A stretch of DNA of 64,000 nucleotides from Hyunsoonleella jejuensis. Lineage in GTDB: Bacteria; Bacteroidota; Bacteroidia; Flavobacteriales; Flavobacteriaceae. Location of the stretch: contig NZ_FOFN01000002.1 in NCBI RefSeq assembly GCF_900111025.1, forward strand, positions 682,001 to 746,000. The letters run 5' to 3'. Below, in pieces: positions 37,601 to 51,737 of this stretch. The position numbers and the translations under genes were made by a program. How positions within the stretch are numbered: the stretch's first letter is position 1; every line of letters starts with the position of its first letter. The notes beneath the pieces were generated by a model, which was given only the letters and a program-made list of their open reading frames with translations, was not told the origin of the DNA and ran no database searches.

Positions 37601-38333
37601 TATTCTTCGTGAAAAAGGAAGTAATTCTGAACGTGAAATGGCAAATGCCATGTATTTAGCTGGTTTTGATGTTAAAGATGTACATATGACTGATTTAATA
37701 TCTGGAAGAGAAACTTTAGAAGATATTCAATTTTTAGGAGCTGTTGGCGGTTTTAGTAATTCTGATGTATTGGGCTCTGCGAAAGGATGGGCAGGTGCTA
37801 TTAAATACAACGAAAAAGCAAATAAAGCCATTCAAAATTTCTTTGACAGACAAGACACACTGTCCGTTGGAATTTGCAACGGATGTCAATTGTTTATGGA
37901 GTTAGAAGAAATAAATCCAGACCATGAAATTCATGGAAAAATGCATCATAATAACTCTCATAAACACGAGAGTTCATTCACCTCTGTGAAAGTTGAAGAG
38001 AACAATTCCGTGATGCTTTCAACCCTAGCAGGCACAACTTTAGGGGTGTGGATCTCTCATGGTGAAGGTAAATTTAATCTGCCTTATGCTGAAGACAAAT
38101 ACCATATTGTTGCTAAATACGGTTACAAAGCATATCCTCACAACCCTAATGGTTCCGATTATAATACCGCTATGATGTGTGATAAAACAGGACGTCATTT
38201 AGTAACCATGCCACATATAGAACGCTCTATTTTCCAATGGAACTGGGCCAACTACCCCAACGGGCGTAAAGACGAAGTATCACCTTGGCTAGAAGCATTT
38301 GTTAATGCAAGGTTATGGTTAGAATCACTCTAA
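34674..38333 (+). CDS. purL: Phosphoribosylformylglycinamidine synthase
   Basis: Large single-chain FGAM synthase, 1219 aa, which converts FGAR, glutamine and ATP to FGAM in purine synthesis; cytosolic. Recognisable parts are the N-terminal substrate domain, the first AIRS-like core (GFSQVNSEHCRHKIF, LKAETHNFPTTVEPF), the second core with DHGAGGHLNC and PTGKDSLSM, and the C-terminal class I glutaminase with the catalytic Cys in GICNGCQLF (about 1065) and His/Glu near WISHGEGKF. The full-length fused form is complete here. Its 3' end overlaps the LytTR gene on the opposite strand by 9 bp. Confidence 0.97.
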   Translation: MIHFFGNVTGKVFAVQSTKELSTEAISKLIWLFGNQPKIEQASLDAFFVGPRAAMITPWSTNAVEITQNMGVQDIIRIEEFEAVAEDFKGYDPMISEKFDGLNQNSFTIDIEPEPILNIEDIAAYNAQEGLSLSDEEVAYLEGVSKKIGRPLTDSEVFGFSQVNSEHCRHKIFNGTFVIDGEEKPTSLFKLIKETSKQNPNDIVSAYKDNVAFIKGPKVEQFAPKRADIPDFYTTSDFDSVISLKAETHNFPTTVEPFNGAATGSGGEIRDRLAGGKGSIPLAGTAVYMTSYSRLEENRPWEKGVEERDWLYQTPMDILIKASNGASDFGNKFGQPLICGSVLTFEHEEDARKLGFDKVIMQAGGIGYGKQDQALKDTPKTGDKIVILGGENYRIGMGGAAVSSADTGEFASGIELNAVQRSNPEMQKRAANAVRGMVESEENYIVSIHDHGAGGHLNCLSELVEDTGGKIDLDALPVGDPTLSDKEIIGNESQERMGLVIGEEHLETLHKIADRERSPMYTVGDVTGDDRFTFQSKTKGNTPMDLAMEDMFGSSPKTIMTDNTVKRNYSDLAYHNNDFYTYLDQVLQLEAVACKDWLTNKVDRCVGGKVAKQQCAGPLQLPLNNVGVMALDYKGKEGIATSIGHSPISGLINPVAGSRNSITEALTNIIWAPLKDGLKNVSLSANWMWPCKNEGEDARLYEAVEAVSEFAINLGINVPTGKDSLSMKQKYPNEDVISPGTVIISAAANCNDITKVVEPVLNKNAGAIYYINIAQDDFKLGGSSFAQILNKIGNEAPNVKDAAYVKTVFNTIQELIRNEQIVAGHDVASGGLITTLLELCFADNNLGAELDLSALNEKDSFKILFAENAGIVIQAKDETIENVLSEANIEFYNIGNVTESDTLSIINGADVFTMTVSRLRDVWYKTSYLLDQKQTANGLAQERFDNYKNQPLKYSFPKHFTGKLPAVGSNKRPKAAILREKGSNSEREMANAMYLAGFDVKDVHMTDLISGRETLEDIQFLGAVGGFSNSDVLGSAKGWAGAIKYNEKANKAIQNFFDRQDTLSVGICNGCQLFMELEEINPDHEIHGKMHHNNSHKHESSFTSVKVEENNSVMLSTLAGTTLGVWISHGEGKFNLPYAEDKYHIVAKYGYKAYPHNPNGSDYNTAMMCDKTGRHLVTMPHIERSIFQWNWANYPNGRKDEVSPWLEAFVNARLWLESL

Positions 38334-39080
38334 CCACTCCTTAAAATCTTTAACACGTTCCCTGGCCACAATAACGTCTTGTTCGTTATACGACTTCAAC
38401 TTTATTTGCACACGAGAATTGGTGTAGCTCACCATATCTTTTATGGCATTTATGTTTACATAAAACTTACGGTTTATTCGGAAAAATGTCTGCGGTTCTA
38501 GCGCTTCTTCCAGCTGCTCTAAAGTGGAGTCTATAAGGTAGTTTCTATTATCCGTTGTATGTAAATAAGTACCTTTATTTTCACTGTAAAAACATTCTAT
38601 CTCATCTATATTAATCAACTTTAAATGCTGACCTACTTTTACTGAAAAGCGCTTTTTATAGTCACGATCTATTGGGTTTACCAACAACTTCTTGATGTCA
38701 TTAAAATCCAAGGTTACAGCCTGTTTTTGCGGTGCTCGTTCTTTATATTTTTTTACAGCTGTTGCTAAATCATCTTCATCAATTGGTTTTAATAAATAGT
38801 CGATACTATTAAGTTTAAAGGCCTGTAAAGCATATTCATCATAGGCTGTGGTAAAAATTACGGCAGATTTGATTTCTATAGTTTCGAAAATTTCAAAAGA
38901 CAAGCCGTCACTTAACTGAATATCTAAAAATATTAAATCAGGATGTATATTATTTTGAAACCATGTTATAGATTCTTCTACAGAATGTAGCATAACTTCT
39001 GCAGTTATATTTACAGTTTGAAGCATGCGCTGCAAACGTCTTGCTGATGGTTTTTCGTCTTCTATAATTATTACTTTCAT
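38325..39080 (-). CDS. LytTR-family response regulator
   Basis: A 251-aa response regulator. The receiver domain (1-120) has the acidic pocket IIEDE (E7-D8), phospho-acceptor D53 in LIFLDIQLSDG and the Lys in LLKPIDE. The LytTR DNA-binding domain follows at about 145-250 (RFSVKVGQHLKLIN, IECFYSENKGTYLH, FFRINRKFYVNINAI). LytTR proteins bind pairs of 9-bp direct repeats with about 12-bp spacing; such pairs lie before the DUF2141-kinase operon and the TonB-dependent receptor gene in this window. The partner kinase is very probably the LytS-type protein at 40289-41629. It ends inside purL by 9 bp, antisense. Confidence 0.93.
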   Translation of the reverse strand: MKVIIIEDEKPSARRLQRMLQTVNITAEVMLHSVEESITWFQNNIHPDLIFLDIQLSDGLSFEIFETIEIKSAVIFTTAYDEYALQAFKLNSIDYLLKPIDEDDLATAVKKYKERAPQKQAVTLDFNDIKKLLVNPIDRDYKKRFSVKVGQHLKLINIDEIECFYSENKGTYLHTTDNRNYLIDSTLEQLEEALEPQTFFRINRKFYVNINAIKDMVSYTNSRVQIKLKSYNEQDVIVARERVKDFKEWLE

Positions 39081-39146
39081 TTTTTTAATAATTTGCTTGG
39101 TTTGTTTTTGACTGACTGGATGTTGCTATTTAATGTTTGCTGATGC

Positions 39147-39235
39147 ATGCGTTAGGGACTGAAGGCACTTCGACTTCTCTCACTACAGGTTTGTTGAGGC
39201 TCTTCAAGGAAGGAGAAAGCGATTGCAAAAACACT
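39147..39235 (+). repeat. Intergenic repeat-like segment (degenerate copy 3)
   Basis: Between the LytTR gene and the broken 2TM gene there is GCGTTAGGGACTGAAGG, similar to the start of copies at 2510 and 29524, but the later blocks are not recognisable. The rest of this 229-bp gap shows no gene. Confidence 0.35.
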
Positions 39236-39309
39236 TATATTCATGAATACCTTATTTTAAAATACTAAATGATGAATAAAGCTCAACCCTTGTGGTAATA
39301 CCCTAATTA

Positions 39310-39627
39310 TTATTCCCACATAATGGTTTCGTTTTGTTCTTTCATAAACTCTTGAGTTTTTCTTTCTTCCCACTTTTCCTTAAAAAATAAGCGGCCTTTA
39401 TAAACATTCCACCCGTGGAGCAGAATAAATATGGTCTAGGCTATAATAAAAATAGTATTAAACCAAGTGAAAAAATCCGCGTATGGCCCGGAGACAATAC
39501 AGAGGTTCCAAAAAAGTAAACCCACGACAATAACATATCCAACAGCATGAACATAAATCACCCTAAGCTGTCGCACCTTTTCCCTTGCTCTAACGTACTT
39601 CTTACTGTTATTGGGATCTGTTTTCAT
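39310..39627 (-). pseudogene. 2TM-domain gene interrupted by an in-frame TAG
   Basis: A 106-codon frame from ATG 39627 (MKTDPNNSKKYVRAREKV) to TAA at 39310 is continuous except for TAG at 39438-39436 (codon 64). Upstream of it come the first 2TM helix and loop, and after it the frame goes on as TIFILLHGWNVYKGRLFF and KWEERKTQEFMKEQ, the canonical 2TM C-terminus (compare RWEKRKIEQFLREEQ in the adjacent paralogue). All paralogues here have a Trp at the aligned codon (I-G-W-G-I-G), so TGG to TAG, a single G-to-A change, explains it. It may be a recent nonsense mutation, read-through at a low level, or a sequencing error. It starts 1 bp after the previous 2TM stop. Confidence 0.75.
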
Positions 39628-39628
39628 A

Positions 39629-39967
39629 CTATTCGTAATTGCGGCTTTCTCGTTCTTCTTTTTCCATAAACTCTCTAATTTTTCGCTCTTCCCAAGCCTT
39701 ACCAAAAAGACGACTTTTACCAAAAACACTTAACGCATGAAACCCCAACCCAATACCCCAAAAGAAAGGTGTGGACCACGTACCGAAATGCATTATATTG
39801 CCGCCGTTGCTAACTATCATAATTAAGATAAAAATGTTTACAGCCACGTACCAGAAGGCATGCCAGTAGAAACCTTTAAGTTCCTTAAGTCGTTTTTCAG
39901 CCCTTAGGTAAGCTTCCTCATTTCTGAAGTCTTTTTTACCGTACGGTTCTATATCAAATTTTTCCAT
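39629..39967 (-). CDS. 2TM domain protein
   Basis: A small two-helix membrane protein, 112 aa from ATG 39967 (119 aa if ATG 39988, which overlaps the preceding gene by 10 bp). It has a charged N-terminus MEKFDIEPYGKKDFRN, then AEKRLKELKGFYWHAFWYV, two transmembrane segments (YVAVNIFILIMIVSN and a second through FFWGIGLGFHALSVF) and a basic tail KAWEERKIREFMEKEE. 2TM domains (PF13239) have no known function but occur beside or fused to histidine kinases. The third of a four-member array here. Confidence 0.85.
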   Translation of the reverse strand: MEKFDIEPYGKKDFRNEEAYLRAEKRLKELKGFYWHAFWYVAVNIFILIMIVSNGGNIMHFGTWSTPFFWGIGLGFHALSVFGKSRLFGKAWEERKIREFMEKEERESRNYE

Positions 39968-39978
39968 TGTTGTATAGT

Positions 39979-40284
39979 TTAATTCCATTGTTTGTCTTGT
40001 TCTTCTCGCAAAAATTGCTCTATTTTACGTTTTTCCCATCTACTTCCAAATATAGGATTACGGGCATAAACACGGTACGCATGAATGCAAATACCAATAC
40101 CCCAGCCAATAGCAGAAAACAAAAACCATTTAATTTCCCAATAGGTTTTATAATTAACATAGATTAAAAAAGGAATTACCAAGCAATATGTGATTATATT
40201 AAAGTACAAGCCTTTTAAATCCTTTACACGTTGTCTTGCTCTTTTTAAGCTATCGTTTTGTTCGTTATTAGTTGAATATCTCAT
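39979..40284 (-). CDS. 2TM domain protein
   Basis: A 101-aa two-helix membrane protein with RARQRVKDLKGLYFNIITYC, LVIPFLIYVNYKTYWEIKWF, AIGWGIGICIHAYRVY and the tail RWEKRKIEQFLREEQDKQWN. It is strikingly like the C-terminal 2TM part of the adjacent kinase (both have YCLVIPFLI, NYxTYW and EQDK/EEDNRWN), so the array arose by tandem duplication. It begins 5 bp after the kinase stop. Function unknown; a partner of, or sink for, the kinase signal is conceivable. Confidence 0.87.
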   Translation of the reverse strand: MRYSTNNEQNDSLKRARQRVKDLKGLYFNIITYCLVIPFLIYVNYKTYWEIKWFLFSAIGWGIGICIHAYRVYARNPIFGSRWEKRKIEQFLREEQDKQWN

Positions 40285-40288
40285 AGTG

Positions 40289-41629
40289 TTAATTCCAACG
40301 GTTATCTTCTTCTTCTCTCATGAACTGTTCAATTTTTCGTCTTTCCCAGTTTCCTCCAAAGGTTTTATCGCTTACAAAAACTTTAAAAGCTTGTATCGTT
40401 AAACCTATGCCCCAACCAATCATTGGAAACCAAAACCATTGAAAACCCCAATAGGTCCTGTAGTTGATAAAGATTAAGAAAGGAATTACTAAACAATACG
40501 ATATTAAACTGTAATAGAAGTTTTTAAGCTCTTCTACGTGGTTTCTTGCACGTAAATAACTGTCGTCCATTTGATTTGATGTTTGTGGTCTCATAACTGA
40601 TATTTGTTTTGTAAGCATTGGTATTGCTACTGCAAAACTGGTTGCTTGTTTGTTTATGTCTACTTTTTTATTTGTGAGTAGTTTATAGCGTTGCATGATA
40701 TTACTCAGCCCTACCCCGCTACTCTTTTTTACTATTTGTTTAGGCTGTAAATTATTTTCCACTACCAAATACCCTTCGTCTTCATAAATTTTGATGTGTA
40801 GCGGTTTACTCGAGGTTACCATATTATGTTTTACAGCGTTTTCTAAAAGCAATTGCAATGATAATGGCACAACCTTACTTTCAGGATTTGAAGAACGCTC
40901 AGGCATTGTAAACACGATACTATCTTCAAACCGCATTTTTAACAGAGACATATAGGTTTTTGCAAATTGCAATTCCTCGTCTACAGTAATTAGCTCCTTA
41001 TTTTTTTGCTCCAAAACGTAACGGTACACTTTTGATAGCGATGTAGTAAACTTTTGTGCTTGGTTTGGATTTTCTTCAATTAAACTAGTTAACACATTTA
41101 AGCTATTGAACAGAAAATGAGGGTCTAATTGGTTTTTTAAAGCATCGAATTTCGCACTTGCTGTTCCCGCTATTACCTTTTGCTCTTTAAGCTTGTTTTG
41201 TTGATATTTATTATAGAAATAAATAACATGAAACACAGCAACTATAGTTAGTGTAATCCAAAGTCCGAATTGATAATATTCAAACCGTTCCCTTTCCAAG
41301 AATACTTCAACCGAGTCGCCTCCAAAAACAAAAAAAGTAAACAGCCTTAAAAAGAACAGGCCAATAAGCGTAATAACGGTAGCTCCAATAGTACCAACAA
41401 TAATGCGCTTTAACGTACTTTTTCTTTTCCATTTAAAATTTTCCATTCTATCAAAAAAATACATATTAGTGTAACCCAATACAAAAGCATATAATTGATA
41501 GAAACCAAAATCGATTAAAAACTCTTGAACACTTTCGTAGCTAAACTTATCGGAAAGCAACTCGCCAATTAGGTATACAATACAGCCTATTACAAAAGTT
41601 AATAATATTTGTTTAACCGATTTTCTCAT
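40289..41629 (-). CDS. LytS-type sensor histidine kinase fused to a 2TM domain
   Basis: A 446-aa membrane kinase. Four transmembrane segments span about 8-26, 42-60, 74-102 and 121-140. The His_kinase domain has the phospho-acceptor H171 in NQLDPHFLFNSLNVL and the ATPase N-box LLLENAVKHNM (about 260-270), with the G-box SGVGLSNIMQRY at 304-315. From about 355 to the end is a complete 2TM module (SYLRARNHVEELKN, then two helices, tail RRKIEQFMREEEDNRWN). Met346 in MRPQTSNQMDD could mark an old separate start, suggesting fusion of a kinase and a 2TM gene. It is the obvious partner of the LytTR regulator at 38325. It lies between a TPR-like gene and the 2TM array. Confidence 0.9.
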   Translation of the reverse strand: MRKSVKQILLTFVIGCIVYLIGELLSDKFSYESVQEFLIDFGFYQLYAFVLGYTNMYFFDRMENFKWKRKSTLKRIIVGTIGATVITLIGLFFLRLFTFFVFGGDSVEVFLERERFEYYQFGLWITLTIVAVFHVIYFYNKYQQNKLKEQKVIAGTASAKFDALKNQLDPHFLFNSLNVLTSLIEENPNQAQKFTTSLSKVYRYVLEQKNKELITVDEELQFAKTYMSLLKMRFEDSIVFTMPERSSNPESKVVPLSLQLLLENAVKHNMVTSSKPLHIKIYEDEGYLVVENNLQPKQIVKKSSGVGLSNIMQRYKLLTNKKVDINKQATSFAVAIPMLTKQISVMRPQTSNQMDDSYLRARNHVEELKNFYYSLISYCLVIPFLIFINYRTYWGFQWFWFPMIGWGIGLTIQAFKVFVSDKTFGGNWERRKIEQFMREEEDNRWN

Positions 41630-41651
41630 TTTAAATACTAATTTTTAAAAA

Positions 41652-42275
41652 TTATTTTTTGCAAGATTCTAATAATTGCTCCACGCGCTCTTTTCCCCAT
41701 TTAGGGTGAAATGGTGTTTCTGGCTTAAATTTAGCGAAAAGTTCTAAGGCGCGTTCCAAATCCTCACAAAATGGCGCAGTATCTTGTCCGAAATATTGAG
41801 CACTCCCAATGTTCCACTCGGCTTTTGATGCGACAACACGTGGGTTCTCTGGTGCCAACACCTCTGCCTTCGCATAAAGCTCAATAACTTTGGGAGATAG
41901 TGTCATACCATAGGTGGCACCGTCAGAGGCTATCCAAGCCGTATGTAACAATGCCTGCATCACCATAATTTCGGGATTATTTTTTGAAATAGCCGTAGCA
42001 TCATTTAATAAATCTTGCCCCTTTCTAAGTTTTGCTGCAAGTTTTTCCTTGTCCTGCTCCCCAAAACTTGTTACTATATTTATTTGTGCCGCCCAGTATG
42101 GTGGCAACCAATTGTCTGGTTCTGCAGAGGCTATACGCTCAAACATATTTGCTGCTTCTCCAGGTTTATTTCGTCCCCATAGTTCAAACGCTTTTTGCAT
42201 TCCTTTTTCATAATTAGTTTGTGCCGTTGCTGTTGCCGAAATAAAAAATAAAGTAATAATAATTACAAGTTTCAT
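41652..42275 (-). CDS. Secreted TPR-like protein
   Basis: A 207-aa protein with a signal peptide (MKLVIIITLFFISATATAQ) and helical repeats resembling tetratricopeptides (NYEKGMQKAFELWGRNKPGE, ANMFERIASAEPDNWLPPYW, DLERALELFAKFKPETPF). The conserved WLPPYWAAQ and HPKWG are seen in a family I recall beside 2TM/LytTR clusters in Flavobacteriaceae, though I cannot name it. Periplasmic. It lies 11 bp after the DUF2141 gene and 22 bp before the kinase, in the LytTR-controlled operon; a ligand-binding or sensing subunit is a possible role. Confidence 0.72.
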   Translation of the reverse strand: MKLVIIITLFFISATATAQTNYEKGMQKAFELWGRNKPGEAANMFERIASAEPDNWLPPYWAAQINIVTSFGEQDKEKLAAKLRKGQDLLNDATAISKNNPEIMVMQALLHTAWIASDGATYGMTLSPKVIELYAKAEVLAPENPRVVASKAEWNIGSAQYFGQDTAPFCEDLERALELFAKFKPETPFHPKWGKERVEQLLESCKK

Positions 42276-42286
42276 AGTCTTAAGTT

Positions 42287-42712
42287 TTATAGTTTAATGT
42301 GTTGTGTAATCGATTCGTTAGTAAGGGTGAATTTTGCATCCTCCCACTTTGGTGGCCCCATAAAACCTTTTGCGTTATTAGAGCATCCATAGTCCTCCCT
42401 AGGAATACCAAACATACCTGTATCCATTTTATTGTTGTCATTTTCATCATGAAATAGGGAAATGGCATAGGTGCCGTTTGGCACATTCTTGAATACCACT
42501 TTACAACTGTTATTTTCAATTTTAGAAAAGGTAGATTTAAAGCCTCTACCCAAAAAACTATCTTCAGAATTATATAGTGATATAAAAACCTTACCATTGT
42601 TGTTTTCTAAATTAGAAACCGTTACTGTTACAGAGTTTCCTTTAGGCTCTTGTGCCATAGTAATAGATGTACTTAAAATAAAAAAGCAGATAATTTTAAT
42701 GAGATGTTGCAT
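42287..42712 (-). CDS. DUF2141 secreted protein
   Basis: A 141-aa secreted protein of the DUF2141 family: signal peptide to MAQ (about 1-20), then beta-sandwich strands VTVTVSNLENNNGKVFISLY, VVFKNVPNGTYAISLFHDEN (with the characteristic HDENDNNKMDTGMFGIP, which looks like a calcium-binding loop) and FTLTNE. Its function is unknown. First gene of the operon that also encodes the TPR-like protein, kinase and 2TM proteins, and preceded by the LytTR-type operator and by the tonB terminator. Confidence 0.85.
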   Translation of the reverse strand: MQHLIKIICFFILSTSITMAQEPKGNSVTVTVSNLENNNGKVFISLYNSEDSFLGRGFKSTFSKIENNSCKVVFKNVPNGTYAISLFHDENDNNKMDTGMFGIPREDYGCSNNAKGFMGPPKWEDAKFTLTNESITQHIKL

Positions 42713-42778
42713 AACCGTTTGTTTTTTAATTATGGTTCAAATATCCCACTATAGTGCTGCTTTTTAAAATAGAACTTA

Positions 42779-42808
42779 CCGAATTGTAAAATATAAGGAG
42801 TGAATTGT
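42779..42808 (-). promoter_or_regulatory. LytTR-type operator of the DUF2141-kinase operon
   Basis: On the minus strand ACAATTCAC (42808-42800) and ACAATTCGG (42787-42779) are 9-bp direct repeats with a 12-bp spacer, 21-bp period, starting 66 bp upstream of ATG 42712. They match the published LytTR half-site [TA][AC][CA]GTTN[AG][TC] at 8/9 and 7/9 positions. The same pair occurs at 50119-50148. Confidence 0.62.
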
Positions 42809-42838
42809 ATTTTTCATGTTTCACAAACTATAAAGCAT

Positions 42839-42882
42839 AAAAAAAAGGTTAAAGATGCCTTATTTAAAAAACATCTTTAACC
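42839..42882 (-). terminator. Terminator of tonB
   Basis: GGTTAAAGATG and CATCTTTAACC form a perfect 11-bp stem with a 14-nt loop; on the minus strand it is followed by eight T. It isolates tonB from the DUF2141 operon, so the LytTR site has its own promoter. Confidence 0.82.
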
Positions 42883-42947
42883 CGTACAAACATGATAATA
42901 GGTATTAACCCTAAAAAGTCTGTTATATGTTTGTTGTTTTACTTTTA

Positions 42948-43673
42948 TTATTGTTCTGCCATTACAAAATTTATAGGCAAACTAAATGGTACGCTTACAG
43001 GTTTACCGCGCTGTTTACCAGGGATCATTTTTGGCAATAAACTTATGATGCGTTGTGCTTCGTCTTCCAAAATTTTGTCTGGTCCCCGAGTTCTAATTTT
43101 TGAAATACTACCATCGGGAGCAATTACAAATATCACATATACACGTCCTTTAATGCCCATATCTAAAGCAGTTTGTGGATAATTAAAATTTTTAACCACA
43201 TGTGCATTCATTTTTTGTTGGAAACAATCACGTCTTTCAGACTTTTTAACGTTTTCACAACCAGGAAATAACGGTACATCTTCTATTATTGCAAATGGCA
43301 CTTCTACATCTTCTTCCAATTCCCCCACATCTACATCCTCCACCCTAACAACTTCGGCAATTATATCATCTTGACTCACTTCTGTACTTTCAAATACAGT
43401 TTCTTCTATATCTTCTGTATCTTCAATTATCTGAACAGACTCCTGCATTACCACAGGTGGTGGCGGTGGAGGGGGCACATTCATGGTTACTAAAGGAACT
43501 TCCTCTTCAATTTCACTATCCACCATTACAACATCTATCGCTACATTGTCTTTTTCATACGTTTTATACTCTATTGCTCGCCACGAAAAAAATAGCATAA
43601 CATTGAGTCCTATTGCGAAATAAAGGCTACTGTTTCGGCCAACCTCTAATTCTGGGTTCTTTTTAGGTATCAT
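42948..43673 (-). CDS. Energy transducer TonB
   Basis: A 241-aa TonB-family protein: an N-terminal cytoplasmic stretch, one membrane helix (SSLYFAIGLNVMLFFSWRAI, 15-34), a Glu/Asp-rich and Pro-rich (VPPPPPPPVV) periplasmic linker, and the TonB_C domain at about 150-241 (NFNYPQTALDMGIKGRVYV, PDGSISKIRTRGPDKIL, GKPVSVPFSLPI). It couples the proton-motive force to TonB-dependent receptors. exbB/exbD are not adjacent. It precedes the LytTR operon, and a TonB-dependent receptor with the same operator lies 6 kb away, but a functional link is only suggestive. Confidence 0.9.
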   Translation of the reverse strand: MIPKKNPELEVGRNSSLYFAIGLNVMLFFSWRAIEYKTYEKDNVAIDVVMVDSEIEEEVPLVTMNVPPPPPPPVVMQESVQIIEDTEDIEETVFESTEVSQDDIIAEVVRVEDVDVGELEEDVEVPFAIIEDVPLFPGCENVKKSERRDCFQQKMNAHVVKNFNYPQTALDMGIKGRVYVIFVIAPDGSISKIRTRGPDKILEDEAQRIISLLPKMIPGKQRGKPVSVPFSLPINFVMAEQ

Positions 43674-43702
43674 GCTTATCAGTTTTATTGTTTGTACTTT
43701 CT

Positions 43703-43731
43703 AAGAATGAAATCGTATGAATTTCATTCTT
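43703..43731. promoter_or_regulatory. Inverted repeat upstream of tonB
   Basis: AAGAATGAAAT-CGTATGA-ATTTCATTCTT has perfect 11-bp arms, 30-58 bp upstream of the tonB ATG. It could be an operator or a 5'-UTR hairpin; no T-run follows on the minus strand. Confidence 0.45.
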
Positions 43732-43950
43732 TTAACCTTCAATTTGTTAGTTTAAAGTTAATCAGAAGATGCTACAATATTTATGACTTTTATCATATTC
43801 TCAGAAAACGAACACCATTTTAACAATATGTAAATACGAAATCGTTTTAGTTTATAATTATGTTATTAAATGATGTTCAAACAAATCAAATATATGTTTG
43901 GTTCTGGCATAACTATCGAGTAACTTACGGGCTAATTTTAAATCGTAATT

Positions 43951-44724
43951 ATGAATTTAAACCTTGCTGTTTTGATAGACGGAGATAACATACCCGCGGG
44001 TAATGTTAAAGAAATGATGGAGGAAATCGCAAAATATGGCAACCCAACCATAAAACGTATTTATGGAGACTGGACCAAACCACACCTTAACAAATGGAAA
44101 AAAGTACTGCTTGAAAACGCCATAACCCCTGTACAGCAGTACAGTTACACCATTGGCAAAAATGCAACCGACTCTGCGATGATTATAGACGCCATGGATA
44201 TTTTATATTCCAATAAAGTAGAGGGCTTTTGCTTGGTTTCTAGCGATAGTGATTTTACGCGGTTAGCCACACGTTTAAGGGAAGCGCGTATGCAGGTGAT
44301 TGGAATTGGTGAAAAGAAAACGCCAAATCCGTTTATTGTTGCTTGCGATAAGTTTATTTATATTGAAATTCTAAAAAGCAGGGACAACGAAAAGAGCGAT
44401 AGTGATGATGAGGATGACAGTAAAATAAATAAGAAATCATCCGTTGATAATATTACGGCCAAAGAAATAAATTTAATAAAATCGTCTATTGAAGATCTTT
44501 CTGATGAAAGCGGTTGGGCATTTTTAGGGGACGTAGGTAGCTTAATACAAAAAAAGCGCCCTAATTTTGATTCGAGGAACTACGGCTTCCAAAAATTAAC
44601 ACCCTTGATAAAATCTACGGACAAGTTTGACATTGAAGAACGAAACGCGCCCAACAACAGTAGATACAAACATATTTATATTAAGAATAAAGAAACCAAG
44701 CGTGGTGGGCGAAGGAAGAAATAA
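43951..44724 (+). CDS. NYN-domain nuclease-like protein with OST-HTH/LOTUS tail
   Basis: A 257-aa protein. Residues 1-140 form a LabA/NYN-type PIN-fold domain with the acidic pocket Asp residues in VLIDGDNI (D9, D11), NATDSAMIIDAMDIL and LVSSDSDFTRLATRL, consistent with a metal-dependent RNase. A charged linker (SDSDDEDDSK) leads to a C-terminal OST-HTH/LOTUS domain at about 165-245 (DLSDESGWAFLGDVGSLI, RNYGFQKLTPLI), a putative RNA-binding module, and a basic tail RGGRRKK. The combination is common in bacteria, and its RNA target is unknown. Single gene; TATGTTTG at 43893-43900 is a possible -7 box. Confidence 0.88.
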   Translation: MNLNLAVLIDGDNIPAGNVKEMMEEIAKYGNPTIKRIYGDWTKPHLNKWKKVLLENAITPVQQYSYTIGKNATDSAMIIDAMDILYSNKVEGFCLVSSDSDFTRLATRLREARMQVIGIGEKKTPNPFIVACDKFIYIEILKSRDNEKSDSDDEDDSKINKKSSVDNITAKEINLIKSSIEDLSDESGWAFLGDVGSLIQKKRPNFDSRNYGFQKLTPLIKSTDKFDIEERNAPNNSRYKHIYIKNKETKRGGRRKK

Positions 44725-45075
44725 TTTGATAAAAAGAACATAATATTCAAGAAAAAATCTAACACCGCACATGTACCTCTAGTTTGGCACTATTTTCACA
44801 CCCCTCACTACTATGCAATTCCGAAAAAACTAAAAAACCCCTCTATTACAATATACAACTCAGCTTAACAATGCTAATGCTGTACTTAAAAACAACTACA
44901 ACAACTAATTAGCCATAAAGGCAACATACCTTAACATCAACACAGGAAACAACTTGATTTTATAGAAATATAAAGCTAACTTTACGTTTTAGTTTGCCTT
45001 GTTTTTTAAGTATACTGCTTGTTAAAACAGCAATCTTCGGTATAAATTCAATCACATTATAAAAAAAGGGATAAA
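44725..45075. other. 351-bp intergenic region
   Basis: No gene, hairpin terminator or repeat seen. It is AT-rich with AC-rich stretches, and presumably contains the ppc promoter, but no convincing TTG/TAnnTTTG pair was found. Confidence 0.5.
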
Positions 45076-47775
45076 ATGAGTAACAGTAGTACATTTCAAA
45101 AAATAGTTGACGACAGAAGCTTTATTATTGATTGTTATGTTGAAATGCTTTCTAGAATTAACGAAAATGACATTGTTGAACTTCTAAAAAACAACAGTCT
45201 GCCAGAAATAGACACTGGAAAACTCCCCAGCGATAAAATAATTCAATCCCTAAGCATTTACTTTCAACTCATGTCTTTGGTAGAAGAAAACGCCGCGACA
45301 CAATACCACAGGAAAATGGAAAATCAAGATGAATCTTTTTCCATAAGGGGTAGTTGGGCAGAAGCGTTTAAGTTTTGGAAAGACCACAATATTAATGAAG
45401 ACGAAATACTAAAGGCCGTTTCGGATACTCATGTAATTCCTGTCCTTACAGCACATCCTACTGAAGCCAAACGTGTTACCGTAATTGAAATCCATAGAGA
45501 ACTCTATTTACTTTTAGTAAAAAGAAAAAACACCTCGTTAAGTAAACTTGAACAAAACAGAATAACCGAAAACATTATACATCTTTTGGAAAGATGGTGG
45601 AGAACTGGGGAAATATATCTTGAAAAGCCACAAATTGAAGACGAGCGAGCTAATGTTGTATACTATTTTAGCACAATTTTTCCTGCACTTTTAGAACGAA
45701 GCGACGAAAACCTAAAGGCTTCCTGGATAGAATTAGGCTTTAAACCTTCAAAGATTAAAAATCCGGATGTTTTCCCTAAAATTAATTTTGGAAGTTGGGT
45801 TGGCGGCGATCGTGATGGCCATCCTTTTGTAACGCCAAGTATCACTCAGGAAACTTTAGCACTACACAGAAAACAAGCCCTTCAATTGATTAAAAATAAA
45901 TTAATAGATGCTGCTATTAAATTTTCGGTTTCTGCGATATCAAATCCAATTCCTTACCAATTACTGGAAGCCATTGAAAAGAAATCTCAAGCACTAGGGG
46001 AACAAGGAACAAAAGCCGTAAAACGAAATCCTTACGAACCTTGGCGACAATACATCAACTTACTTATTGTAAAGTTAAACAACACCATTTCTGATAATGT
46101 TGCAGACTCTGCATCCTATTACAAATCCAGTAAAGCACTTCAAGACGACCTGAAATTTTTTAGGGATATACTAGTTGAGAACGGAATGAAAGGTTTAGCT
46201 GAAAGTTTACTTTTCTCTTTAGAACGATTGGTGAGTTGCTTTGGTTTTCATCTGGCAAAATTAGACATAAGACAAAATAGTGCGTTTCACGACAAAGCCA
46301 TTTCACAAATTTTAAAAGCTACAGGTGAAAAAGATTTTGATTTTGCGAATTGGAACGAAGAAAAAAGGGTAGCCTACTTGAGCAAACAACTTGAGAATCA
46401 TGCTACTGTTACAGACATAACCGTATCTTACGGCACAGAAGCAGATAATGTATTAGATTGTTATCGCGTAGTGCGTCATCACATTAACCAATATGGTGCA
46501 GATGGTATTGGTTCTTTTATTATTAGTATGACCCGTAATCTTAGCGACTTGCTTGTAGTTTATTTTTTGATGAAAGAAACACAATTGCTAAATACAGGCA
46601 TTAAAGTGGTGCCTCTTTTTGAAACTATTGAAGACCTAGATAATGGCCCTAAAATTTTAGAGCAATTTTTACAACACCCAACAACATTACAAAGAGCCCA
46701 AAAAACGGCCTATAAACAAGAAATAATGCTTGGTTATAGCGACAGTAATAAAGACGGGGGCACAATTGCTAGCAAGTGGAATTTGCATAAAGCGGAGGAA
46801 AAACTCTCAGAAACAGCTCTAAAAAATAATTTTAAAGCCTATTTTTTTCACGGTGCGGGCGGTACTATTAGCCGAGGTGGGGGCAAATACCATCGTTTTT
46901 TAGAAAGTATGCCACTAAATACGGTGAACGGCACAATAAAAATTACGGTTCAAGGCGAAACAATTGCACAGTTGTTTGGAAACCCACTTACAGCCACTTA
47001 CAACCTTAACGCACTAGCGTCGGGTGTAGCAAAACAGACTATCTTAGCCAAGTATAATTTAGATACTAATGAGTATCCATTTGAAATTATGGATTACTTA
47101 TCGCAAAAATCTTTTGAACACTACAGGGATTTAATTGAAAGTGAAGGTTTTATAAACTTCTATGGCAAAGCAACATGCATTGACGTACTAGAACGCAGTA
47201 AAATTGGCTCAAGACCTGCAAGAAGAACAGGCACTAGAACGCTTAACGATTTAAGAGCCATTCCTTGGGTGTTTAGCTGGAATCTTTCACGCATATCCCT
47301 GACTGGTTGGTACGGACTTGGGCATGCCTTAAAAACCTTGAAATCAGAGCAACCAACGGCGTTTAAAACATTACAAAAAAGCATAAAAGAATGGCCGTTC
47401 CTTAGATTTTTAGTGATACAAACAGAAACCAATCTTATACTCTCTAACAAAGAAATGATGCACGCCTATGCTAATTTAGATGATGATGCAGATGAAAGGA
47501 AGGCGTTCATGTCTAAAATCTTAACAGATTATGATAACAGCTTCCAATTAATTGAAGAGCTTTTTGAGGAGCCTGCCGTTGATAGAAGACTTGGACAATA
47601 CGACATTATAAAATGGCGAAACGAAAAACTAAATGTGCTACACCATTTACACATTAAGTACTTAAAACAATGGAGGGCAATGAATGACGACAATAGCAAT
47701 GAAAAAGAGAAAATCCTATCCAAATTACTAAGCATAATCAACTCTATATCTAGCGGATTGAAAAATACGGGATAA
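45076..47775 (+). CDS. ppc: Phosphoenolpyruvate carboxylase
   Basis: Adds bicarbonate to phosphoenolpyruvate to make oxaloacetate, the anaplerotic entry to the TCA cycle; cytosolic homotetramer. At 899 aa the length is normal. Conserved active-site segments are VLTAHPTEAKR (catalytic His, about 140), GSWVGGDRDGHPFVT (about 240), MLGYSDSNKDGG, FFHGAGGTISRGGG (the Gly-rich loop) and GSRPARRTG; the C-terminus GLKNTG is the conserved end. The ATG is preceded by AAAAAAAGGGATAAA, an unusually clear purine-rich ribosome-binding site for this phylum. Single gene without a detectable terminator before the convergent receptor gene. Confidence 0.97.
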   Translation: MSNSSTFQKIVDDRSFIIDCYVEMLSRINENDIVELLKNNSLPEIDTGKLPSDKIIQSLSIYFQLMSLVEENAATQYHRKMENQDESFSIRGSWAEAFKFWKDHNINEDEILKAVSDTHVIPVLTAHPTEAKRVTVIEIHRELYLLLVKRKNTSLSKLEQNRITENIIHLLERWWRTGEIYLEKPQIEDERANVVYYFSTIFPALLERSDENLKASWIELGFKPSKIKNPDVFPKINFGSWVGGDRDGHPFVTPSITQETLALHRKQALQLIKNKLIDAAIKFSVSAISNPIPYQLLEAIEKKSQALGEQGTKAVKRNPYEPWRQYINLLIVKLNNTISDNVADSASYYKSSKALQDDLKFFRDILVENGMKGLAESLLFSLERLVSCFGFHLAKLDIRQNSAFHDKAISQILKATGEKDFDFANWNEEKRVAYLSKQLENHATVTDITVSYGTEADNVLDCYRVVRHHINQYGADGIGSFIISMTRNLSDLLVVYFLMKETQLLNTGIKVVPLFETIEDLDNGPKILEQFLQHPTTLQRAQKTAYKQEIMLGYSDSNKDGGTIASKWNLHKAEEKLSETALKNNFKAYFFHGAGGTISRGGGKYHRFLESMPLNTVNGTIKITVQGETIAQLFGNPLTATYNLNALASGVAKQTILAKYNLDTNEYPFEIMDYLSQKSFEHYRDLIESEGFINFYGKATCIDVLERSKIGSRPARRTGTRTLNDLRAIPWVFSWNLSRISLTGWYGLGHALKTLKSEQPTAFKTLQKSIKEWPFLRFLVIQTETNLILSNKEMMHAYANLDDDADERKAFMSKILTDYDNSFQLIEELFEEPAVDRRLGQYDIIKWRNEKLNVLHHLHIKYLKQWRAMNDDNSNEKEKILSKLLSIINSISSGLKNTG

Positions 47776-47893
47776 AACGACTAGCTTGATCTAAGGATTT
47801 TACGAGCACATTGAGACAAAACATCACAAAGTAAATGAGAAGCAACTTAGTAGAAATGAATAGTTTCCATTTATACCATCAACTATTGTAGGT

Positions 47894-50047
47894 CTACAAA
47901 TTGTCCAATTGGTTACTAGTTTTATCCTCACTAATTGTCCAAAAGAACCCAACAAAAAAGAACTGATCTAAGGCAGGACGCAAAGCGCGACGGTTAAAGT
48001 TACCATTCATATCTGGCGTATTGGCATATTGATAGCCATTGATATTTTTAAACCCTAATGCATTATTAACCGAAGCATATAGTATTTTTTGTGGACTAAT
48101 TAAATACGCCCAGTTTAAGCTTAAACTTTGAAACGCTTTGGTTTTTTCGTTTAAGAAACCAGGTTTATTCGGGTTGGTATATGTTCTGCCTGAAGCATAG
48201 GCATAACTAAACCCTACCTGACTTTTCCAATCGTCTATCCAATATTTAGTAACTGCTGAGAAGTTATGGGTATTGGCAAAATTAGGTTGCACACGCTCGG
48301 GAAAGTTTCTGTCATTTCGTTTGGTATCCAAAAACGAATAGCTTAACCAATAATCTAAATTTTTAATGCTCTTGCTATCTCTCCAAAAAAAGTCAATACC
48401 TCTTGCAAAACCAGACCCATCGTTACTAAAATTACTATCAAAACTTGGAAAATCCCCATCATACTTCACCAAATTATTATAGCTTTTGTAATATGCTTCA
48501 GCTCTAAAAATTTTTCTATCTGCGTTATATTGATAGTTCAAAATATAATGTTTTGCATTTGCAGGTTCAAAATCCTGATGAAATTTCAGCACATTACTAG
48601 TTGGATTTTGATAAAAATCACCATAAGCCATGGACAACTGGCTTTTATCAGAAATTTTATAGGCCATTGTTGCTCTAGGCGCTAGAGAAAAACTGTCAAA
48701 TAGCGCACTATATTCACCTCTCAACCCTGTTTTAAAAGCTAAGTTTTTTGAGATAAATATATCAGCTTCAGCAAATGCAGCTGCAATGTTATTGTTAAAA
48801 CCATATCTAGCATTATCAACAAACTCATCAAAATACCGCTCTTCAAAATCAGTTTTAAAATACTCAGCACCAAAGTATAATTTAAAGCGATTACTAATAC
48901 GGTTCTTAAGCTTCAGTTTTGAGTGTATTGATTTTTCAGAATCTTTAATATCTCTATCTCCTAGGTTAATTTTATTCTTTGCATTGGTGAGACTAAACCC
49001 TGTTTGCATGCTCCAAGTATCACTTAAAACACCACTGTAAGATCCATTTAAATAAAAATTGTTATTATTTAATTTGATGTATTGTCCTTCGGGAAGATTA
49101 ATATCCTCTTGAGTCAATTCAAAACTACTGGTATCAAAAGCACCGTAGAGCTTGAATAGTCCTGAATTGGTTTTTCTTCTAAATACCGCTTCTCCTGAAG
49201 CCGTCTGAAAAGGCTTAATAAAGTCGTTTCTATTTGGAAAAATGGCGTTGTATGGTGCTAAATTGACGTAAGACGCATTGACACTAACCGAACTTTTCTC
49301 CCATTTTTGAGTATTTCCCAAAGTAACACCAACACTCATAATACCAATGTCTGTTTTTTCTTGGTCTGGCTCATCAATTGTATTTAACAATAATACGCTA
49401 GACAGGGCCTGCCCGTATTCTGCAGAATAACCACCGGTTGAAAAGGTAATACCATCAAATAAAAACGGAGAATAGCGTCCGCGCGTTGGGGCATTATTAG
49501 TTGTGGGTGTATACGGTGTAAATACACGAATACCGTCAATAAAAATTTGGGTTTCGTTAGCATCGCCACCGCGTACAAATAAACGCCCATCTTCTGCAAC
49601 CGTCGTTGTTCCAGGTAAAGTCTGTAGCGCACCTACAAAATCACCTAAAGCGCTTGCTGTTGTTACCACATCCAAAGGTTTTAATACATTCACTTTACTA
49701 TTATCGCCAGCTGAAAATGTACCAGCAGATAATACAACGGCATCTAAAGTATTTACGTCGTCCTTTAGTTTTATCATTAAATCACTCATGTAAGACACAT
49801 CGCCTACCATGGTAAATGTTTCATAAGACAGAAATGAAACTATTAAGGTTTGCGTTCCTGTTTCAGAAGTTGAAAACGAAAACGTACCATTTTCATTAGT
49901 TGTTCCTCCATCATAAGTACCTTCTAAATAAACATTAGCGCCAATAATCGGTTCTTTTTTTGCATTAATCACAGTACCTCTTATTGTAGTTTGCCCCTGT
50001 ATTTGGATGACTAATAACGTGATAAAAATGGTTAGCAAAGTCTTCAT
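47894..50047 (-). CDS. TonB-dependent receptor with N-terminal carboxypeptidase-like domain
   Basis: A 717-aa outer-membrane active transporter. After a signal peptide (MKTLLTIFITLLVIQIQGQ) comes a CarboxypepD_reg-like domain (about 20-110: TIRGTVINAKKEPIIGANVY), then the plug domain with FVGALQTLPGTT, RLFVRGGDANETQIFIDGI and the 22-strand barrel ending near LDQFFFVGFFW. The ORF can be extended to a TTG at 50080, but ATG 50047 gives the proper leader. The substrate is not evident; size and the absence of a susD neighbour suggest a siderophore, vitamin or metal receptor instead of a SusC. A LytTR-type operator lies 72 bp upstream, tying it to the two-component cluster. Confidence 0.9.
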   Translation of the reverse strand: MKTLLTIFITLLVIQIQGQTTIRGTVINAKKEPIIGANVYLEGTYDGGTTNENGTFSFSTSETGTQTLIVSFLSYETFTMVGDVSYMSDLMIKLKDDVNTLDAVVLSAGTFSAGDNSKVNVLKPLDVVTTASALGDFVGALQTLPGTTTVAEDGRLFVRGGDANETQIFIDGIRVFTPYTPTTNNAPTRGRYSPFLFDGITFSTGGYSAEYGQALSSVLLLNTIDEPDQEKTDIGIMSVGVTLGNTQKWEKSSVSVNASYVNLAPYNAIFPNRNDFIKPFQTASGEAVFRRKTNSGLFKLYGAFDTSSFELTQEDINLPEGQYIKLNNNNFYLNGSYSGVLSDTWSMQTGFSLTNAKNKINLGDRDIKDSEKSIHSKLKLKNRISNRFKLYFGAEYFKTDFEERYFDEFVDNARYGFNNNIAAAFAEADIFISKNLAFKTGLRGEYSALFDSFSLAPRATMAYKISDKSQLSMAYGDFYQNPTSNVLKFHQDFEPANAKHYILNYQYNADRKIFRAEAYYKSYNNLVKYDGDFPSFDSNFSNDGSGFARGIDFFWRDSKSIKNLDYWLSYSFLDTKRNDRNFPERVQPNFANTHNFSAVTKYWIDDWKSQVGFSYAYASGRTYTNPNKPGFLNEKTKAFQSLSLNWAYLISPQKILYASVNNALGFKNINGYQYANTPDMNGNFNRRALRPALDQFFFVGFFWTISEDKTSNQLDNL

Positions 50048-50603
50048 GAGAATTAATTTATGTGTTTTTTGTTGACACAAAATTGCGACAGAAGATTACA
50101 TTTTAAAATTTACAATTACCGAACTGTAATTTTTTAAAGACGAATTGTATTCCGCGAAAAACACAATGGGAGGATCTTAAATTTTTCATAAATATCCCAT
50201 ATTATAAAATGATAGTTTTTTAAGATTATAAATTTTTTAAAACACTAAAGTTTATCAATTGAGGGCAACAGAAAAGAAGTGCAAACAACATCAGTTTCTT
50301 ATAAAATATCAACTATTATTTTTTTGCTATATTAGCGTAAGATCTTCAGCTAAACCTAGTCCAAATCACCTAAAAAACAATAATAGATTTTATCTATACC
50401 ATACAATTAAACCATTGTTAACCAAAGACTTTAATTAACTCACATAAACAACTCGTTCAAATTATAGATTCTAAGTCAAAATACTATACACTTCTATAAA
50501 AACTCATGAAAACCATCTAAAAAGGCATTGAAAAAAATTTGAATTTTGATGTAACAAATCAAAACTAAAAGCTACTTATACATTAACTAAACCATCAAAA
50601 TAT
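50048..50603. other. 556-bp intergenic region, divergent regulatory space
   Basis: Apart from the LytTR-type repeat pair at 50119-50148 the region is AT-rich and holds no gene. It separates the receptor gene from the sigma factor gene at 50604. No second repeat pair or clean consensus promoter for the sigma gene was found. Confidence 0.6.
50119..50148 (-). promoter_or_regulatory. LytTR-type operator of the TonB-dependent receptor gene
   Basis: Minus strand ACAATTCGT (50148-50140) and ACAGTTCGG (50127-50119) are 9-bp direct repeats with a 12-bp spacer; each matches the LytTR half-site consensus at 8 of 9 positions. They lie 71 bp before ATG 50047. Flanking GGTAA after the second half-site is also shared with the site at 42779-42808. 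Confidence 0.62.
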
Positions 50604-51098
50604 TTGAATACAGAACTAGAACATAGCTTTGTTGAATTATTAGAAAAACATCAAAACATCATACATAAAGTATGTAGGCTGTACACTAATAATTATGATG
50701 CGCATAATGATTTATTTCAGGAGATTACCATTCAACTTTGGAAGGCTTATCCGAAATTTCGTGGCGATGCTAAGTTTAGTACTTGGATGTATCGGGTAGG
50801 ATTAAATACAGCGATTACATTATACCGAAAATCAAAACGCAGAGTAAATACTCAGGATTTTGAGGGAGTCGCTTTTAAAATGAAAGCCGAAGAATATGAT
50901 GATACCGAAGAAGAGCAGTTAAAATTATTGTACAAAGCGATACATCAACTAAATGATATTGAAAAAGCACTTGTATTTCTGTATTTAGAAGACAAAGACT
51001 ATAGAGAAATAAGTGAAACACTTGGTATTAGCGAGGTAAATGCACGAGTGAAAATGAACAGAACGAAAACTAAACTAAGAAACATACTAAATCCTTAG
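50604..51098 (+). CDS. ECF-type RNA polymerase sigma factor
   Basis: A 164-aa sigma-70 family protein of ECF size. Region 2 is at about 25-90 (NDLFQEITIQLWKAYPKFRG, FSTWMYRVGLNTAITLYRKS) and region 4 at about 110-160 (LNDIEKALVFLYLEDKDYRE, GISEVNARVKMNRTKTKL). No ATG precedes region 2 in frame: an in-frame stop lies at 50547 and TTG 50604 is the only conventional start, so a rare start codon is likely. The 211-aa membrane-protein gene begins 3 bp after its stop and is probably its regulator. Confidence 0.9.
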   Translation: MNTELEHSFVELLEKHQNIIHKVCRLYTNNYDAHNDLFQEITIQLWKAYPKFRGDAKFSTWMYRVGLNTAITLYRKSKRRVNTQDFEGVAFKMKAEEYDDTEEEQLKLLYKAIHQLNDIEKALVFLYLEDKDYREISETLGISEVNARVKMNRTKTKLRNILNP

Positions 51099-51101
51099 CC
51101 C

Positions 51102-51737
51102 ATGGACGGATTAGATTTACTAAAGAAAGATTGGAACAAGCAACCTGAAGACAAAAAGTTTTCAGTAAAGGATATTTATACGATGCTGCATAAAAAATCG
51201 TCTTCAATTGTAAAGACCTTATTTTATATAAGTATTGCAGAGCTTGTATTTTGGATTATTATTAACGCTGTTCCTTATTTTTGTTCACAAAGTTACAAGG
51301 AAAGGCTTGAAGCTATTTATACTAACGACCAAGTGTTTACAATATTAACAATATTGAGCTATGGAGTCATCGTGGTTTTTATTTTCCTGCTTTACAAGTC
51401 TTACAAATCAATTTCAGTTACCGACAGTGCAAAAAAGTTAATGGAAAGCATCCTAAAAACGCGAAAGGTAGTTAAGTACTACGTGCTTTACAACTTAGTT
51501 ATGGCCGGTGTTTCAATGGTAATAGGCTTTTATTATGCGTTTCACAACGATTCTGAAATGGCTGAAAACCTATCGCACCTAAACGACAAACAAATGCTTG
51601 TTGCCTTGGCTGTAATAATTGTGTTCACAGCAGTCTTCATATTAATGATTTGGCTGTTTTACAAACTTATTTATGGACTACTTTTAAAGCGCCTTAACAA
51701 AAACTATAAAGAATTAAAAAAACTTGATGAAGATTAA
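51102..51737 (+). CDS. Four-helix membrane protein, putative anti-sigma partner
   Basis: A 211-aa protein with an N-terminal cytosolic stretch (MDGLDLLKKDWNKQPEDKKF, then VKDIYTMLHKKSSS) and four predicted membrane helices (about 37-60, 79-101, 122-145, 160-190). Its gene is directly behind the sigma factor gene (3-bp gap), the standard position of an anti-sigma factor. It lacks the zinc-binding H-x3-C-x2-C motif, so a noncanonical membrane anti-sigma or sensor is inferred. Confidence 0.72.
   Translation: MDGLDLLKKDWNKQPEDKKFSVKDIYTMLHKKSSSIVKTLFYISIAELVFWIIINAVPYFCSQSYKERLEAIYTNDQVFTILTILSYGVIVVFIFLLYKSYKSISVTDSAKKLMESILKTRKVVKYYVLYNLVMAGVSMVIGFYYAFHNDSEMAENLSHLNDKQMLVALAVIIVFTAVFILMIWLFYKLIYGLLLKRLNKNYKELKKLDED

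Follow-up and report, generated by a model that had tools for sequence, protein, structure and literature searches.

What governs a TonB-dependent receptor gene that lies about 5 kb from a cluster of genes for a HusA-like protein, a sensor kinase and a LytTR response regulator, when the same pair of short repeats precedes both? The question is raised by a 64,000-nucleotide stretch of contig NZ_FOFN01000002.1 of Hyunsoonleella jejuensis (here the window, in whose positions all coordinates are given; the whole genome is of 3.48 Mb). The known regulators of Bacteroidota TonB-dependent receptors, which are hybrid two-component and extracytoplasmic function (ECF)/anti-sigma systems, mostly concern sugars. 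Our results indicate that the repeats are very probably the operators of an autoregulated LytTR two-component regulon, which includes the receptor.

The two operators of the window are as follows:

42779-42808, minus strand: operator 1, ACAATTCAC-N12-ACAATTCGG, upstream of the DUF2141/HusA-like/kinase operon.
50119-50148, minus strand: operator 2, ACAATTCGT-N12-ACAGTTCGG, upstream of the TonB-dependent receptor gene.

On the minus strand, the half-sites of operator 1 occupy 42808-42800 (ACAATTCAC) and 42787-42779 (ACAATTCGG) and those of operator 2 occupy 50148-50140 (ACAATTCGT) and 50127-50119 (ACAGTTCGG), each pair being separated by a 12-bp spacer and followed directly by TAA. The direct repeats of 9-12-9 form, with their trailing TAA, are thus present exactly as claimed in an earlier note on this DNA, which was also right in placing them 66 bp before the ATG at 42712 and 71 bp before the ATG at 50047, and in giving a fit of 7-8 of 9 to the LytTR consensus (8, 7, 8 and 8 of 9 by hand count). 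The list of open reading frames puts the receptor start at a TTG at 50080; we favour the ATG at 50047 because the predicted transcript begins near 50073. With up to two mismatches allowed, the pattern finds just the two operators in the window, both exact, compared with an average of 0.15 matches in shuffled sequences, of which 1 in 100 reaches two.

For the whole genome, a strict pattern (ACARTTCR-N13-ACARTTCGG) was used with the same pattern read backwards as control. It has four exact matches, compared with none for the control and about 0.003 expected from the base composition of the window; a scan for random matches, which the earlier note had proposed, thus reveals no excess at the same score. 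When two mismatches are tolerated there are six matches against two in the control, from which the four exact matches stand apart; the sites with two mismatches, C2:188373 (about 3 kb from another LytTR gene) and C4:621991, are at background level and were set aside. Operator and -7 box (see below) taken together have four matches at up to three mismatches and none in the control. The third genomic operator precedes a DUF2807 'GIN' gene, itself just behind a PadR/PspC pair, and the fourth a second DUF2141 gene. These two extra targets, together with the kinship of the second operon gene to HusA and the architecture of the promoters, are new here, being absent from the earlier note.

Conservation was studied in 60 genomes of relatives, that of H. 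jejuensis among them, in which a LytTR orthologue was taken as a protein of at least 60% identity, and in 299 genomes of the family, in which the regulator was counted as present at an E value of 1e-80 or better. The strict pattern is present in 16 of the 60 relatives (31 sites; none for the reversed control) and in 91 of the 299 family genomes (116 sites listed; one control match). Every strict-pattern site listed for the two samples together makes 133 distinct operators, 119 of which precede recurrent target classes, i.e. the kinase operon (58), the receptor (25), a lone DUF2141 gene (23), a GIN gene (9) and a 2TM gene (4). In the 260 bp ahead of each of 24 receptor orthologues, the top 9-12-9 site reaches 15-16 points out of 16 for 19 orthologues, 14 for two, 13 for two and 12 for one, with runner-up sites at 9-13. 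In 27 of 30 relatives the kinase operon, or the receptor heading that operon, is preceded by a site scoring no less than 14 of 16.

Alignment of the 119 classified operators (offsets counted from the operator) reveals a fixed core promoter downstream, of which the window has two copies:

42738-42745, minus strand: -7-like box of promoter 1, GATATTTG, 33 bp after operator 1, with transcription predicted to start at about 42733.
50078-50085, minus strand: -7-like box of promoter 2, CAATTTTG, 33 bp after operator 2, with transcription predicted to start at about 50073.

The box, at offsets 33-40, reads [CG]AnnTTTG, with C or G in 87%, A in 99%, the three T in 100%, 100% and 97%, and G in 91%; T is found at offset 10 (i.e. 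-35) in 99% and a purine at offset 45 in 95%. All six letters stand at offset 33 in 96 of the 119 and at least five in 112, the latter divided among receptor (24 of 25), kinase operon (56 of 58), lone DUF2141 (23 of 23), GIN (7 of 9) and 2TM (2 of 4) classes, with 7 of the 14 unclassified operators also having at least five. The published systems are cited here and below from extracts of the papers concerned. The primary-sigma box of Flavobacterium psychrophilum, TAnnTTTG, is placed at -12 to -5 (PMC9723704), which would put the start at offset 45 and the operator at -75 to -46, centred at about -60. AgrA sites likewise centre at about -60, before core promoters that are suboptimal (PMC4227749), and the LytTR repeats of LytTR regulatory system (LRS) operons have a spacing of mostly 12 bp, with a bias to a position 10 bp before -35 (PMC6193735). 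The fixed distance from operator to box is as expected of an activator site. A scan with an E. coli-type promoter gave no more matches than in shuffled sequences and was uninformative.

The same spacing holds in named loci collected by their kinase gene, of which we used the best 80 of at least 577 confirmed stretches (at least 589 matched); distant relatives are therefore under-sampled, at least a few genomes overlap with the sample of relatives, and 3 of the 80 are labelled only Bacteroidia or Bacteroidetes. Of the 78 operators in these loci that reach 16-17 of 17 points, 75 are followed by the box at offset 33, compared with 0-1 at each of 20 other offsets, and the box fades with the operator score (22 of 28 at 15; 5 of 70 at 14). 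A composite score for operator and box (maximum 23; first base of the box C, G or T; neighbouring offsets costing half a point) reaches at least 20 within 1.5 kb upstream of the kinase in 75 of the 80 loci versus none of 80 reversed controls, and at least 18 in 77 versus one control. The comparison of orthologous upstream regions suggested in the earlier note thus finds the operator kept ahead of both target units, in 19 of 24 receptors at 15-16 of 16 and in 75 of 80 kinase loci.

Two genomes of another family, G040 and G053, whose regulators have about 46-48% identity, have weaker sites of the same form before the receptor (ACGGTTCAG/ACCATTCGG in G040; ACCGTTCAG/ACCGTTCGG in G053, where position 4 is G as in the classical LytTR consensus). 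In both, the receptor gene lies directly upstream of the HusA-like gene, in a single cluster with the genes for kinase, 2TM proteins and regulator; G013, G023 and G025 also have the receptor at the head of the cluster. The place of the receptor in the regulon is therefore probably old.

Which protein reads the operator? The strict pattern occurs in 88 of the 223 family genomes with the regulator and in 3 of the 76 without (p = 1e-10), so that 88 of 91 operator-bearing genomes have the LytTR orthologue; the three others are G113 (81% complete, with a site before a kinase relative, L250), G157 and G232 (sites unclassified). Among the 60 relatives, 16 of the 29 with the orthologue and none of the 31 without have the pattern (Fisher p = 5e-7). 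In G011, which belongs to the same genus, the pattern and the orthologues of regulator, kinase and receptor are all absent at the cut-offs used. This co-occurrence supports the proposal of the earlier note that the LytTR regulator encoded at 38325 is the probable cognate factor.

Some points weigh against the reading as an autoregulated LytTR regulon. The p values take no account of shared ancestry, and 135 of the 223 regulator-bearing genomes are without the strict pattern, with relaxed scans recovering most operons, not all. The 14 unclassified operators precede other genes or no recognised gene. The receptor orthologue of G042 is without a site above background and four more of the 24 are weak; for the kinase operons, G022 is borderline, G012 has an internal site only and G021 none. 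Five of the 80 named loci fall short of 20 of 23 for operator and box, of which L208 and L222 supply just 413 and 528 bases of the search stretch, L223 and L224 score 19, and L205 has an operator further upstream. In the window itself, some 550 bp containing an interrupted frame lie between the last intact 2TM gene and the regulator gene, so that co-transcription of the latter with the operon is not certain. Finally, 27 of the 29 regulator-bearing relatives also have the neighbouring ECF sigma factor.

These points were weighed with three other explanations. It is very unlikely that the regulator represses these promoters instead of activating them: LytTR repressors are known, e.g. PlnD (PMC2714321), and the sign of an effect is not readable from sequence alone, but the whole operator is located before the -33/-7 region, with hardly any variation in distance, like the sites of promoters activated by AgrA or LRS, and the core promoter is degenerate. 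That another regulator reads the operator, for example one of the three other LytTR proteins, with the adjoining regulator a bystander, is highly improbable. The genome does have four LytTR proteins, and half-sites of different LytTR members are alike; however, operator and box stand before the kinase of this very system in the 75 named loci, the strict pattern is missing from the 15 of the 31 orthologue-lacking relatives that have other LytTR-type proteins (E 1e-20 or better), and in one scan of 9-kb stretches around the three paralogues, near-identical repeats of 21-bp period with a box at offsets 31-35 are weak, none of them having the box at 33.

The ECF sigma factor encoded at 50604, divergent to the receptor, would on the last explanation read the [CG]AnnTTTG promoters, the repeats belonging to a co-regulator or being incidental. 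The -7 box differs from the primary-sigma consensus at its first base, and in 14 of 24 loci no more than 1.5 kb separates the ECF gene from that of the receptor; with the ECF present in 27 of 29 relatives with the LytTR orthologue and 7 of 31 without, only seven genomes separate the two candidates. Those cases are few yet concordant: G011, G017, G018, G024 and G038 encode the ECF (E 1e-45 or better) and lack both the strict pattern and the LytTR orthologue, whereas in G013 and G027 operators are present and no ECF passes that cut-off. The F. psychrophilum ECF-type motif, in the extract of PMC9723704, contains CGT, unlike this box. The seven genomes disfavour the ECF sigma factor as promoter reader despite the 27 of 29, and we regard it as scarcely credible.

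The genes of the presumed LytTR-controlled operon, in order of transcription, are:

42287-42712, minus strand: DUF2141 protein, first operon gene, by domain scan.
41652-42275, minus strand: HusA-family protein of 207 aa, with a tetratricopeptide repeat-like fold and, by eye, a signal peptide; no Pfam match.
40289-41629, minus strand: sensor histidine kinase (PF06580) with a C-terminal 2TM domain and an intact H box.
39979-40284, minus strand: 2TM protein, by domain scan.
39629-39988, minus strand: 2TM protein, by domain scan.
39307-39627, minus strand: third separate 2TM-like frame with one in-frame stop, the frame judged by eye.
38325-39080, minus strand: response regulator with receiver (PF00072, phosphoacceptor Asp53) and LytTR (PF04397) domains, both over cut-offs, located after 2TM genes in the relatives examined.

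His171 of the kinase is invariant in 13 aligned sequences. Compared with the PDB by sequence, the regulator found no solved relative of its LytTR domain, the matches lying in the receiver part or little beyond. Between kinase and regulator, genomes differ widely in how many 2TM genes they have, from none or one to about five (L100-L129, L157-L236), which looks like tandem expansion next to a kinase whose own C-terminus is a 2TM domain. The spacer of about 230 bp after the third frame holds a GAGAAGTCGAAGTGC stretch, by eye like GAGCTTGTCGAAGT near the L010 site.

The 207-aa operon protein is, by sequence and by modelled fold, a relative of HusA. It matches HusA with an E value of 6.1e-13 over profile positions 43-206 (next match, E = 0.0046), and its model (predicted local distance difference test score, pLDDT, 89.5) superimposes on HusA with template modelling (TM) scores of 0.77/0.79 at 22% identity (E 3e-6). 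Twelve HusA positions were mapped by hand through a hidden Markov model alignment and compared in 27 sequences. The porphyrin-site residues are mostly not kept: W130 is replaced by Gly in 27 of 27, Y164 by Gly in 25 and S161 by Trp in 27, and S115 and S119 likewise by other nearly fixed residues, while F80 stays aromatic (Phe in 17, Trp in 10) and Y133 is Tyr in 11. Replacement of most pocket residues lowers a simple reading, by analogy with HusA, as haem uptake; a carrier for a different ligand and a haemophore appear equally likely roles.

The receptor and the genes around it are:

47894-50047, minus strand: TonB-dependent receptor of 717 aa, with a carboxypeptidase-regulatory-like domain, a plug (PF07715) and a predicted beta-barrel.
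50604-51737, plus strand: ECF sigma factor gene and small membrane-protein gene, divergent to the receptor.
42846-42883, minus strand: terminator-like hairpin of 16 pairs with a T tail, after a TonB gene, which it parts from operator 1.

The low-confidence receptor model (pLDDT 60) resembles TonB-dependent transporters such as YddB and BtuB; it does not single out a substrate, the matches listed being TonB-dependent transporters of many substrates, and by sequence only N-terminal stretches of SusC were matched. The kinship of the 207-aa protein with HusA brings a carrier-like protein and a TonB-dependent receptor into one regulon. The ECF genes near the receptor are 83-99% identical in the 13 loci besides the window's own. 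Terminator-like hairpins occur at three sites in the stretch, compared with 2.8 expected from shuffles. A protein with NYN and OST-HTH/LOTUS domains is encoded at 43951-44724 on the plus strand, between the TonB gene and that for phosphoenolpyruvate carboxylase.

The GIN gene and its PspC neighbour suggest an envelope-maintenance branch of the regulon; toastrack proteins have been tied to membrane stress, PadR and, in Firmicutes, LytTR proteins (PMC11237479, in extract). A literature search on DUF2141 returned no flavobacterial paper by title among its results. Among the 14 unclassified operators, those of L243, L248 and L323 lie 51-53 bp before genes for look-alike small multi-membrane-pass proteins, possibly a fifth target class in other genera. 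In two related genomes (L301, L304), operators lie 63 bp before the gene for a beta-lactamase-like serine hydrolase, so named by eye.

In FecA/FecIR-type control, a TonB-dependent receptor is under a signal-responsive ECF sigma factor with its anti-sigma factor. The receptor here would likewise be under signal-responsive control, assigned to a LytTR two-component system, and, unlike FecA, its N-terminal domain is carboxypeptidase-regulatory-like. With AgrA (agr P2/P3) and PlnC/PlnD, the system shares a LytTR two-component response regulator, direct repeats upstream of the promoter and its own operon as target (PMC4227749, PMC2714321), and the pln promoters have 9-bp repeats with a 12-bp spacer, as here (PMC2714321); it differs in its Bacteroidota promoter with a -7 box and in its targets, namely genes for an uptake receptor, a HusA-like protein and proteins of the envelope. 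Like LRS and Bacteroides LRS-like operons, it has autoregulatory direct repeats immediately before the promoter, and the Bacteroides repeats too precede a -7 box, TATCTTTG; however, LRS have a LytTR regulator and a membrane protein with no kinase, the Bacteroides repeats being of 11 bp with 11-bp spacing (PMC6193735). LRS membership is ruled out by the receiver domain and kinase of the present system. Porphyromonas gingivalis HusA hands porphyrins to the receptor HusB, and the same sources report HusA homologues only from Bacteroidetes (PMC6173696, PMC10100897); the combination of a HusA-family protein with a TonB-dependent receptor is shared, the receptor being likened by class only, whereas five pocket residues (W130, Y164, S115, S119, S161) are replaced here, inspection of the 207-aa protein by eye shows no lipobox, and a two-component system lies within the operon. 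Full-text literature searches, with subscription papers and preprints mostly outside their coverage, found no title or abstract opening that describes this regulon; LytTR in flavobacteria is mentioned in PMC5395568.

Taking the LytTR regulator as an activator, an envelope signal would activate the kinase encoded at 40289, which would phosphorylate the regulator encoded at 38325, and two regulator molecules, as in the LytTR family, would occupy both half-sites on one helix face. The operator occupies -75 to -46 relative to the predicted start, and the -7 box of the core promoter is weakened ([CG]AnnTTTG for TAnnTTTG); given this architecture, from which we infer activation, RNA polymerase with the primary sigma factor would need the bound regulator to start. 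Bound regulator would raise the kinase/2TM/regulator operon itself, giving positive feedback, and with it the HusA-like protein and the TonB-dependent receptor, which may handle one ligand, as well as the DUF2807 envelope protein and the second DUF2141 protein.

The overall results define operator and core promoter to the base, and the named targets, predicted starts and point mutations make the proposed circuit directly testable. They tie four little-known protein types (DUF2141, DUF2807, 2TM and the HusA relative) to what is probably one regulator, which co-occurs with the strict pattern in 88 of the 299 genomes sampled from a single family. We tentatively raise the possibility of an uptake circuit across much of the Flavobacteriaceae, in which the HusA-like protein and the receptor might capture a ligand, possibly a tetrapyrrole or metal-cofactor, and a kinase with fused and free 2TM modules might sense the state of capture, with LytTR rather than ECF in control and in step with envelope-maintenance proteins.

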